A stretch of 64,000 bases of DNA from Lentisphaerota bacterium (GTDB lineage Bacteria; Verrucomicrobiota; Lentisphaeria; Oligosphaerales; JABHEG01). The DNA lies in contig JABHEG010000220.1 in the NCBI GenBank assembly GCA_018676675.1, positions 1-64,000 of the forward strand, written 5' to 3'. Of the stretch, positions 34,033 to 36,479 are shown piece after piece. A program made the position numbers and the translations under genes. Below the pieces are notes generated by a model. The model did not search any database and had not been told where the DNA came from. It worked only from the letters and a program-made list of their open reading frames with translations. Position 1 is the stretch's first letter; the number at the start of each line of letters is the position of its first letter.

Positions 34033-34101
34033 CACACAGTCTCCCAAAATGACGTTCTTCGATGCAGAATCCGCCAACAGCCGCAGAGCGCCCAAGTAGT
34101 C

Positions 34102-34178
34102 GACGCAGAGCCTGTGTCGGACATCGAACACCAACACGGCAACAAAAGCAACCAGGAGTACGACGCAGAGCCTGCGTC
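34102..34178. repeat. Paired hairpin repeat (GACGCAGAGCCTG.GTC units)
   Basis: Two nearly identical 17-nt units, GACGCAGAGCCTGTGTC at 34102-34118 and GACGCAGAGCCTGCGTC at 34162-34178, lie 60 bp apart. The second has a perfect seven-base stem (GACGCAG/CTGCGTC), the first a mismatched one. The pair sits immediately upstream of the acyltransferase start and explains the spurious N-terminal extension of that frame. Confidence 0.7.
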
Positions 34179-34242
34179 CGCTACCCATGGCAGGCAGGGC
34201 AAACAACGCGTGCCCGGGGAATCCAAGCAGGATGGAACAGCT

Positions 34243-34431: not shown

Positions 34432-34547
34432 TAGACGTCGAGGTCACTCTGCACAAGCCCCGTGAATCCTCTTCCCGACGCGATAGGCGTAGCTGTCGAA
34501 GACAAACCGACGCTTGATGAACGGGCTGCCCATCACACAAGACATGA

Positions 34548-34650
34548 TAGTTCCGCGTTTGCGCGGCCTGCCCTGGCTCGGGGAAAGACCGCCTGAAGGC
34601 GAGACTACGTACACGACGACGCCTCCGTATGTAGTTCCGCGTTTACGCGG
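34548..34650. repeat. Family B REP/BIME downstream of RAYT (one pair plus one half)
   Basis: One complete back-to-back pair of palindromes lies at 34548-34607 (left hairpin CCGCGTTTGCGCGG; right hairpin CCGCCTGAAGGC followed by GAGACTAC). A further left half, GTAGTTCCGCGTTTACGCGG, occupies 34631-34650. The stop codon of the transposase gene (34643-34645) lies in the loop of this last hairpin. The full array is on the other side of the gene at 35294-35776. Confidence 0.9.
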
Positions 34651-35248
34651 CCTGCCAGTCGTCCCACCCCTGGCCGAAGTCATGCAGGGGGTACTCCTGC
34701 CACAATCGAGTCGCCTCCTCCCTTCCTATTCTCTCGAGGAAAGACGCCGCACTGCCGAAAGGCCACTCCTGCCAGAGCTCGCAGCACGCATGACGAACGG
34801 GATTGTGATGGATGTAGTTGAGTGTCGCGAGCCGATGTCGCTGCGACCGCATGCGACGATCAGTGCAGCGATGCCAGCACTTGCGCCCAGGGCACGAATC
34901 ACACCTGTTCCAAGCATGCGAACTCCTGCCGTGCAGCTTCCCGATCAAATGCAACACGTCTTCGAGCGAGGGAGTCGCGACGAGGGCATGCCAGTGATTG
35001 GGAAGCACGCAATGCGCGTAGATGTGCTCGCATAGCTCGCCTAGGAGTTCCACTAGTTCAGCCTCGAATGCCGCAAGTCGATGCAATGATCGTCCGAGGA
35101 TGACTTGGTGCTCGAAGTTGGCGGCCGTGAGGTGAAACGTGCCCGGGCCGATCAGATGAGGGGGAGAGTGCATGGGGTAGCCCCGTGCTTTCCGCAGACG
35201 AAGGGCTTCCTGGCGTTGTTCATCAGTCATGTTCCGCCAAGCGTACAC
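34643..35248 (-). CDS. REP-associated tyrosine transposase (RAYT), IS200-like Y1 fold
   Basis: 201-aa single-strand HUH/Y1 transposase-family protein. The metal motif HWH is at 85-87 (HCVLPNHWHALV), and the catalytic tyrosine is probably Tyr145 in NYIHHNPVRH, the RAYT signature. The frame is open further, but its first residues translate REP sequence. I chose the GTG at 35248, with AGGAGG eight bases upstream. It is flanked by its likely target repeats on both sides, and the 3' end of the gene is itself a REP. RAYTs nick and join REP DNA, and are usually single-copy domesticated relatives of IS200/IS605 transposases. Confidence 0.92.
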   Translation of the reverse strand: MYAWRNMTDEQRQEALRLRKARGYPMHSPPHLIGPGTFHLTAANFEHQVILGRSLHRLAAFEAELVELLGELCEHIYAHCVLPNHWHALVATPSLEDVLHLIGKLHGRSSHAWNRCDSCPGRKCWHRCTDRRMRSQRHRLATLNYIHHNPVRHACCELWQEWPFGSAASFLERIGREEATRLWQEYPLHDFGQGWDDWQAA

Positions 35249-35293
35249 TGATCGTTCCTCCTCGTTTCTACGTACACGACGCCTGCTCCGTAT

Positions 35294-35776
35294 GTAGTTC
35301 CGCATTTTCGCGGCCCGCCCAGGCTCGGGGAAAAACCGCCTGAAGGCGGGACTACGTACACGACGTCTGCTCCGTATGTAGTTCCGCGTTTACGCGGCCT
35401 GCCCAAGCTCGGGGAGAGACCGCCTGAAGGCGAGACTACGTACACGACGCCTGCTCCGTATGTAGTTCCGCGTTTACGCGGCCTGCCCAAGCTCGGGGAG
35501 AGACCGCCTGAAGGCGGGACTACGTACACGACGCCTGCTCCGTATGTAGTTCCGCGTTTACACGGCCCGCCCAGGCTCGGGGAAAGACCGCCTGGAGGAC
35601 GGGACTACGTACACGACGCCTGCTCCGTATGTAGTTCCGCGTTTACACGGCCCGCCCAGGCTCGGGGAAAAGCCGCCTGAAGGCGGGACTACGTACACGA
35701 CGCCTGCTCCGTATGTAGTTCCGCGTTTACACGGCCCGCCCAGGCTCGGGGAAAAGCCGCCTGAAGGCGGGACTAC
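35294..35776. repeat. Family B REP/BIME array, six units of 84 bp
   Basis: The GTAG marking each unit starts at 35294, 35378, 35462, 35546, 35631 and 35715 (period 84, once 85). Each unit reads GTAGTTCCGCGTTTACGCGG, then a 22-bp linker, then a second hairpin CCGCCTGAAGGCGG ending in GACTAC. On the reverse strand that arm also begins GTAG followed by its hairpin. So every unit is two inverted REPs, each with a 5' GTAG, followed by about 22 bp of spacer. It lies between the RAYT start and the convergent end of pyrE and fills that gap. It is not a CRISPR array: the intervals are repeated too. Confidence 0.95.
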
Positions 35777-35807
35777 GTACATCCAGTCCGTCCATCCCAA
35801 GGACTGC

Positions 35808-36479
35808 CTACACGCCATATTCCGCGCGATAGGCGTCGATCCTCGTCTTCAGTTCATCGTCCAGGACAACGCACCCGTTGACCGGCCGATTGTGCAGATG
35901 CTCAACGATCTCCGCGAGATCCACGATGGATGCCGTCGGCATTGAGAACATCTCGCCAACTTCGACCAGCGCTCCCTTGCTGCCCGTTCCGCGTTCCATC
36001 CGGTCGGCGGAGATGATAAGCCCTGCCAGCTCGATGTCAGCCGCGGCCCGCAGGATCGGGACGGTCTCCCGAATGGAGGTCCCCGCGGTTGTGACGTCCT
36101 CGATGATCAGCACGCGGTCGCCGTCCTGGAGCTTGTGCCCCACCAGTGCCCCGCCTTCACCGTGGTCCTTGACTTCTTTCCGATTGAAGCAAAAGGCAAT
36201 CTCATGGTCGTTCTCGGCCGCAAGAGCGATCGACGCCGTCACAGCCAACGGGATTCCTTTGTAGGCAGGCCCGAACAACACGTCGAAATCCCGCCCGAAC
36301 GTTGCTGTGATGGCTGCTGCATAGTACCCGCCCAGACGCCGAATCTGCTCCCCGGTGCGGTAGTTTCCGGTGTTGATGAAATAGGGCGTCTTTCGCCCGC
36401 TCTTGGTCGTGAAATCACCGAACGTCAGTACGCCCGACTCGACCATGAACTCGATGAAGTCCTGTTTGTACGTTTCCAT
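35808..36479 (-). CDS. pyrE: Orotate phosphoribosyltransferase
   Basis: 223 aa. It converts orotate and PRPP to orotidine 5'-phosphate in de novo pyrimidine synthesis, in the cytoplasm. The PRPP-binding motif VLIIEDVTTAGTS is at 123-135, the flexible catalytic loop NRKEVKDHGEGG at 99-110, and the N-terminal SGRKTPYFINTG is diagnostic. Length is normal for the family. GAGGAAAG precedes the ATG. It is transcribed toward the REP array and divergently from the DUF6785-like membrane gene. No other pyr gene is adjacent. Confidence 0.97.
   Translation of the reverse strand: METYKQDFIEFMVESGVLTFGDFTTKSGRKTPYFINTGNYRTGEQIRRLGGYYAAAITATFGRDFDVLFGPAYKGIPLAVTASIALAAENDHEIAFCFNRKEVKDHGEGGALVGHKLQDGDRVLIIEDVTTAGTSIRETVPILRAAADIELAGLIISADRMERGTGSKGALVEVGEMFSMPTASIVDLAEIVEHLHNRPVNGCVVLDDELKTRIDAYRAEYGV

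Follow-up and report, generated by a model that had tools for sequence, protein, structure and literature searches.

Here we found that the locus between about 34543 and 35781 of the window (the whole 64-kb stretch of DNA that was analysed) appears to be a REPtron, in which a domesticated IS200-like HUH/Y1 endonuclease, or RAYT, is accompanied by a tandem REPIN array on both flanks. This assignment draws on the protein sequence, its predicted fold, the flanking REPs and the dispersed REPs, and we put its probability at roughly 0.92. As in other REPtrons, REPs stand on both sides of the gene and are also dispersed in the host genome; the protein combines an HUH motif with one catalytic-type Tyr in a Y---NP motif (class 2 TnpA-Y1), as read from its sequence, and its AlphaFold model has the TnpA-REP fold. 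An earlier note on this DNA had proposed that the RAYT lies within an array of its own GTAG-hairpin substrates, which is supported by homology, fold, genome-wide recurrence and hairpin covariation. Taken alone, the locus adds a REPtron from a phylum that has been little studied, and the arrangement is already known. What is new, and the part worth following, is family-wide switching of the guide tetranucleotide that precedes the REP hairpin.

The RAYT coding sequence lies on the minus strand (34643–35248) and runs from a GTG start to a TAA stop over 201 amino acids, with the HUH motif at H85-W-H87 and a predicted catalytic Tyr145 within YIHHNP. The frame called by the ORF program is 220 amino acids long and opens within a REP at an ATG at 35305. 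The GTG at 35248 is the more likely start, because it is preceded by an AGGAGG sequence 8 nt upstream, read as the ribosome-binding site (35257–35262, minus strand), and because it aligns with Met1 of the homologues, which start exactly at this codon with MYxWR. With this start, only the 3′ end of the RAYT gene lies in a REP; its 5′ end does not. Upstream and in the same direction is pyrE, encoding orotate phosphoribosyltransferase (35808–36479, minus strand; TIGR00336, 162.9 bits against a cut-off of 106.8), which lies outside the REPtron. The earlier note's remark that any promoter must lie in or through the array is plausible; read-through transcription from pyrE into the RAYT gene is also possible, and no promoter for the RAYT gene was established from the window sequence.

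When the 220-residue reading was scored, the match to NF047646 (REP-associated tyrosine transposase) was 58.2 bits and the match to Pfam Y1_Tnp was 20.3 bits, below the cut-offs of 80 and 23, respectively; these cut-offs are annotation thresholds and do not define biology, and the scores mark a divergent subgroup. A profile built from 39 homologues matches E. coli TnpA-REP (4er8) with an E-value of 3e-9. The AlphaFold model, with a mean pLDDT of 88.6, likewise has 4er8 as its top PDB match (E-value 1.1e-7, TM 0.58/0.69), followed at a great distance by IS200/IS605 transposases. Residues N84, H87, Y145, N149 and P150 are invariant in the 39 homologues and H85 is nearly so, with the HUH motif being HWH here and HYH in most homologues. 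The recognizable motifs are NHWH, WH, YIHHNP and, in a proline-rich N-terminus, PMHSPPH. The gene is single copy, with one match at an E-value of up to 1e-8 in the host genome, and a plasmid search with the protein gave no match.

At 35268–35781, Tandem Repeats Finder resolves an 84-bp unit repeated 6.1 times with 95% matches. Each unit comprises a 70-bp REPIN and a 14-bp spacer, and the REPIN reads GTATGTAGTTCCGCG-TTTA-CGCGG, a linker, and then inverted GTACGTAGTCCCGCC-TTCA-GGCGG. Six REPINs lie upstream of the gene, at 35290–35359 (nearest the gene start, with a degenerate top REP, GTAGTTCCGCATTTTCGCGG), 35374–35443, 35458–35527, 35542–35612, 35627–35696 and 35711–35780 (the outer end of the array, adjoining pyrE), with start-to-start spacings of 84, 84, 84, 85 and 84 bp. 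On the downstream side there is a single REP, or half unit (34627–34652, plus strand), and a seventh REPIN at about 34543–34612, whose inner arm (34587–34612) is intact and whose outer arm is degenerate, with ATAG from 34547. The earlier count of 84-bp units, six on the upstream side and one and a half on the other, is therefore borne out by the repeat finder and the REPIN coordinates. Its further statement that both strands of every unit present GTAG and a hairpin is true of most arms, but not of the ATAG arm or of the bottom arm of the fourth REPIN (35586–35612), in which a 1-nt insertion breaks the stem. The stop codon had been placed in the loop of a REP, at 34643, and this is where it lies: the TAA (34645–34643, minus strand) falls within the TTTA loop (34642–34645) of the single REP. 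Most REPs of the array remain intact. Thirty REPs were used to build a covariance model, which gives 15 matches in the 64-kb window, all within the array; an Rfam search returned no match.

The array is also open in several frames on the minus strand (35227–35529 and 35558–35818), giving spurious ORFs (VVPPSGG...RKRGTTYGAGVV); in genomes of this kind, such frames are likely to be annotated falsely as “hypothetical proteins”. Outside the array, a hairpin scan shows two facing, longer GTAG-headed palindromes at 34096–34185 (GTAGTCGACGCAGAGCCTGTGTCGG and GTAGCGGACGCAGGCTCTGCGTCG), which are unlike the array REPs, were not reported by the repeat finder, and could be a worn REP pair of another type.

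In 30 distinct REPs, taken from the host genome and from relatives, all stem positions form standard pairs (100% paired), and the covariation score is 0.705, against 0.13 for shuffled controls and at most 0.125 for slid controls. Since the REPs were picked for pairing, the evidence is the covariation and not the pairing itself. REP stems are 5–6 bp long and offset by 2 nt from the foot. With the loop left unconstrained, 129 of 132 hairpins of the form GTAG, 2 nt and 5-bp stem in the homologue loci have a TTTA or TTCA loop (TTYA). The same layout is found in the REPtron Mb of Marinomonas sp. MWYL1 (Bertels group 3), whose REP is GTAG, 2 nt, a 5-bp stem and a 4-nt TTNA loop (PMC8266576). In Mb, SELEX and mutants showed that T12, T13 and A15 are essential and position 14 is free (PMC8266576), and the three essential bases are the invariant ones here. 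This agreement, which is independent of the present analysis, supports the idea that recognition would proceed through stem and loop.

The earlier note had considered so long and regular an array at a RAYT to be unusual, which did not hold up. The two flanks (350–380 bp) share 13-mers in 64 of the 70 named homologues for which both flanks were present, compared with 2 of 70 for control flanks 1.5 kb away, and tandem REPIN clusters beside RAYTs, flanking sequence included, have been published (PMC3116915). GTAG hairpins occur at 1.04 per kb within 800 bp of the homologues and at 0.07 per kb beyond 1.5 kb. Long arrays are present at L038, L050, L051 and L059, and the layout recurs in homologues that are 40–57% identical. 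The REPtron layout is the rule in this RAYT family rather than an exception. A stop codon within a REP is also seen at L049, L061/L160, L089, L092, L099 and L127, at differing positions of the REP; REPs are known to overlap RAYT gene ends and often provide the stop codon of flanking genes, and GTAG REPs have been described in Verrucomicrobia (PMC3733652). The family was found in Verrucomicrobiota (including Lentisphaerae and Kiritimatiellae), Acidobacteriota, KSB1, Calditrichota and Planctomycetota. In the scan of genome contigs, a single-protein query gave nothing and an alignment query gave 80 loci.

The host genome (G000) is a 14.1-Mb draft of 390 contigs with an estimated contamination of 8%, in which the window is contig C245. 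The covariance model gave 54 REP matches there at an E-value of up to 0.1, of which about 15 are the array and about 38 lie outside it, mostly as inverted pairs. A genome-wide hairpin search had been suggested earlier, and its outcome is that the palindrome is not confined to the locus. A bare count of GTAGTYCCGC was uninformative (93 sites against 165 for the reversed control), the motif being too short and the count near chance, and it was replaced by BLAST of the 84-bp unit together with the covariance model. Fourteen of the copies outside the array are of a single element, whose 58-bp REPIN core has one arm in common with the array, and the dispersed REPINs are of another subtype than the array REPIN. 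The exact array REPIN, with its CCGCCTTCAGGCGG arm and linker, does not recur elsewhere in the host genome, and only its other arm is present in the dispersed REPINs; recent movement out of the array therefore lacks support.

The 14-copy element is located on contigs C4, C17, C28 (two), C32, C102, C120 (two), C137, C257, C321, C358 and C388 (two), corresponding to L063–L076, and its REPIN core sits inside longer conserved flanks. These flanks look as if they were the two arms of another palindromic repeat of larger size (GGGGGAGCCGCCGGTC... / ...GCCGCCGGTCCCCC), so that the copies look like a REPIN nested in another repeat, the two having spread together.

Among 149 relatives, REPs were found in 16 of the 20 genomes with a close RAYT homologue (E-value under 1e-30) and in 25 of the 129 others; the Fisher p of about 2e-7 is only indicative, as related genomes are not independent and REP counts per genome are lower bounds. 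The comparison of REPs with RAYT presence proposed in the earlier note thus mostly favours the link, with a strong association across the relatives, but several RAYT-less genomes are REP-rich. Genomes G023, G031 and G035 have at least 126, at least 130 and at least 65 REP matches, respectively, with no NF047646 match at an E-value of up to 1e-8, and only G031 of the three has a Y1_Tnp protein. The REP-RAYT link is therefore not one to one. These genomes may have lost the RAYT, the gene may have fallen into assembly gaps, or a different mobiliser may be at work. In the same three genomes, which are of one family (loci L194–L217), the REPs often form 26-bp head-to-tail repeats instead of inverted pairs, and these repeats alternate two hairpin types with CAGCC and CAAGC stems.

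Going by published TnpA-REP biochemistry, the RAYT would bind the REP folded as single-stranded DNA, for example in the lagging-strand template, through its stem and loop. The cut would be set by pairing of the GTAG guide with a CT or CA dinucleotide close by, and Tyr145 would nick and rejoin the DNA, such that REPINs could be excised and re-inserted elsewhere. The regular 84-bp array probably expanded as one REPIN and its spacer were duplicated in tandem, since the spacer repeats too, and nicking by the RAYT may have set this off. The stop codon in the REP would be a by-product of a REP overlying the 3′ end of the gene.

In a rival scenario, the array arose passively by slippage or unequal recombination and the RAYT no longer acts on it. 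The repetition of the spacers along with the REPINs at about 95% identity, the decay of two arms, the different subtype of the dispersed REPINs and the inclusion of flanking sequence in published tandem clusters (PMC3116915) all speak for this scenario. Set against these are the HUH and Tyr residues, which are intact and conserved, the preservation of most array REPs, and the recurrence of the layout in such divergent homologues, and we regard the passive scenario as possible but rather doubtful. Much less probable, in our assessment, is that the array is a transcription or mRNA-end structure (terminators or mRNA stabilisers) lying behind pyrE and surrounding a small gene, rather than a substrate of the protein. 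The array does directly follow pyrE, one of its hairpins has a T-rich stretch behind it and is scored as a terminator (35349–35336), and REPs elsewhere affect mRNA stability and termination (PMC6006769). However, there are 2 terminator-like sites compared with 1.4 in shuffles, which is no excess, and a terminator role does not predict repeats on both flanks of most homologues or a guide that follows the RAYT tree.

A further alternative is an insertion sequence of the IS200/IS605 type, autonomous and bearing subterminal hairpins. In its favour are the common HUH/Y1 superfamily and the weak Pfam Y1_Tnp match. These elements have a YxENQ motif and are multi-copy, whereas the RAYT has YIHHNP (class 2, Y---NP), a single match in the genome, and TnpA-REP as its best fold match, which makes this the most improbable of the readings we considered.

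Within the RAYT family, the foot of the REP, or guide, is not fixed. By locus, the guide is GGAG at 27, GTAG at 23, AGAG at 17, GTTG at 7, TGAG at 5 and GGTG at 2, and non-GTAG feet thus outnumber GTAG in the sampled homologues. Many homologues have no GTAG hairpins, and the same hairpin stands behind another tetranucleotide. The genomes G151, G152 and G154 yielded 79, 94 and 75 matches to a GGAG/AGAG REP model but 0, 0 and 2 to the GTAG model; in the window's genome, the corresponding counts are 3 and 44. The GGAG/AGAG feet are thus genome-wide and not local. Since the hairpin is common to both models, the two cross-match (122 vs 149 in G161, for example). Both foot types are present in G149, G150, G153, G155 and G164. 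On a tree of 90 proteins with 80 labelled rows, the foot changes 18 times, compared with 36–50 times in 200 shuffles and 25–34 times in within-phylum shuffles. Read across about 80 homologues, these sequences suggest that the guide changes between lineages together with the enzyme, with the hairpin held constant. No clear covariation was seen between the flank tetranucleotide and the guide, most guides being preceded by G-Y-N-Y. At L124 and L159 an extra base separates the GGAG foot from the stem (GGAG + 3 nt), so that the layout varies in a second way. A published REP survey using RNAMotif rules targeted GTAG or GTGG feet, and the GGAG/AGAG REPs of this family would therefore escape it; surveys limited to these feet miss much of this RAYT family's REPs. 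The papers that we searched yielded no description of these GGAG and AGAG feet.

The protein column most informative on foot position 2 is residue 130. This residue is Asp in 33 of 33 loci with T at position 2, and at loci with G at this position it is Glu in 31, Asp in 11 and another residue in 5. In the 4er8 profile alignment, residue 130 is opposite E. coli E100, which is among the GTAG-contact residues of E. coli TnpA-REP (PMC6006769, PMC8266576). The raw association with the guide has a p of 2.5e-13, which is inflated by kinship; in tree-independent pairs, all those that differ agree, with just 3–4 being well supported, so that a sign test cannot reach significance. We consider the link between residue 130 and guide base 2 a lead. 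In every foot G4 is retained, together with A3 or with a T at position 2 or 3, and by the Mb pairing rule (PMC8266576) the kept bases would hold the cut site at CT or CA. Taken as a whole, the family may be a natural series of re-addressed REP endonucleases, in which the TTYA hairpin is fixed, the guide switches with the protein, residue 130 helps to determine the second guide base (Asp where this is T, mostly Glu where it is G) and the kept foot bases hold the cut at CT or CA; we give this combined proposal an even chance of being correct. The approximately 80 natural enzyme-substrate pairs vary in the guide tetranucleotide and are fixed in the rest of the hairpin, which makes RAYT recognition of REPs and the choice of cut site testable by swaps of single residues or guides.

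The REPtrons of E. coli, Pseudomonas fluorescens SBW25 and Stenotrophomonas (PMC3116915, PMC3733652, PMC8266576) likewise have an HUH/Y1 protein with one gene copy, GTAG hairpins in inverted pairs that are both flanking and dispersed, and tandem REPIN clusters beside the RAYT. Unlike these, the present locus belongs to another phylum and RAYT subgroup, and the feet of its homologues are often GGAG, AGAG or GTTG, rather than GTAG or GTGG. Bertels group 3 (subclass 2.5) has the same short, REPMb-like REP with an offset GTAG, but its proteins have DH[LF]H and YI[VI]ANP, compared with NH[YW]H and YIHHNP in the present family (NHWH in the window). TnpA-Y1 subclass 2.8, with 8 cyanobacterial proteins and relatives noted in other phyla, is described as having HYH, W[YH], YIHYNP, a proline-rich N-terminus and long canonical REPs with GT[AG]G feet (PMC6006769). 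Judged by this published description, the present family seems similar in having HYH (in most homologues; HWH in the window), W[YH], YIHxNP, a proline-rich N-terminus and a length of about 200 amino acids, whereas its REPs have 5–6 bp stems, a 2-nt offset and feet that vary between homologues. The protein motifs therefore fit best with subclass 2.8 and the short offset REPs with group 3 (subclass 2.5), and we do not file the family under either.

The host genome also contains 11 other Y1_Tnp paralogues, which were considered as alternative mobilisers; a scan showed no array-type GTAG hairpins beside them. One of the 11, a tyrosine-transposase-like gene, has beside it a tandem array of another kind at L029 (contig C324, 770–1198), in which a 91-bp unit whose ends are inverted (CTTGTACG...CGTACAAG) is repeated 4.7 times, and this is possibly a second REPtron type with another foot. 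At L240 (contig C339, 26188–26213), a REP lies in an apparent open frame beside YD-repeat-like (RHS-type) sequence and would translate as FVVPPSGG.
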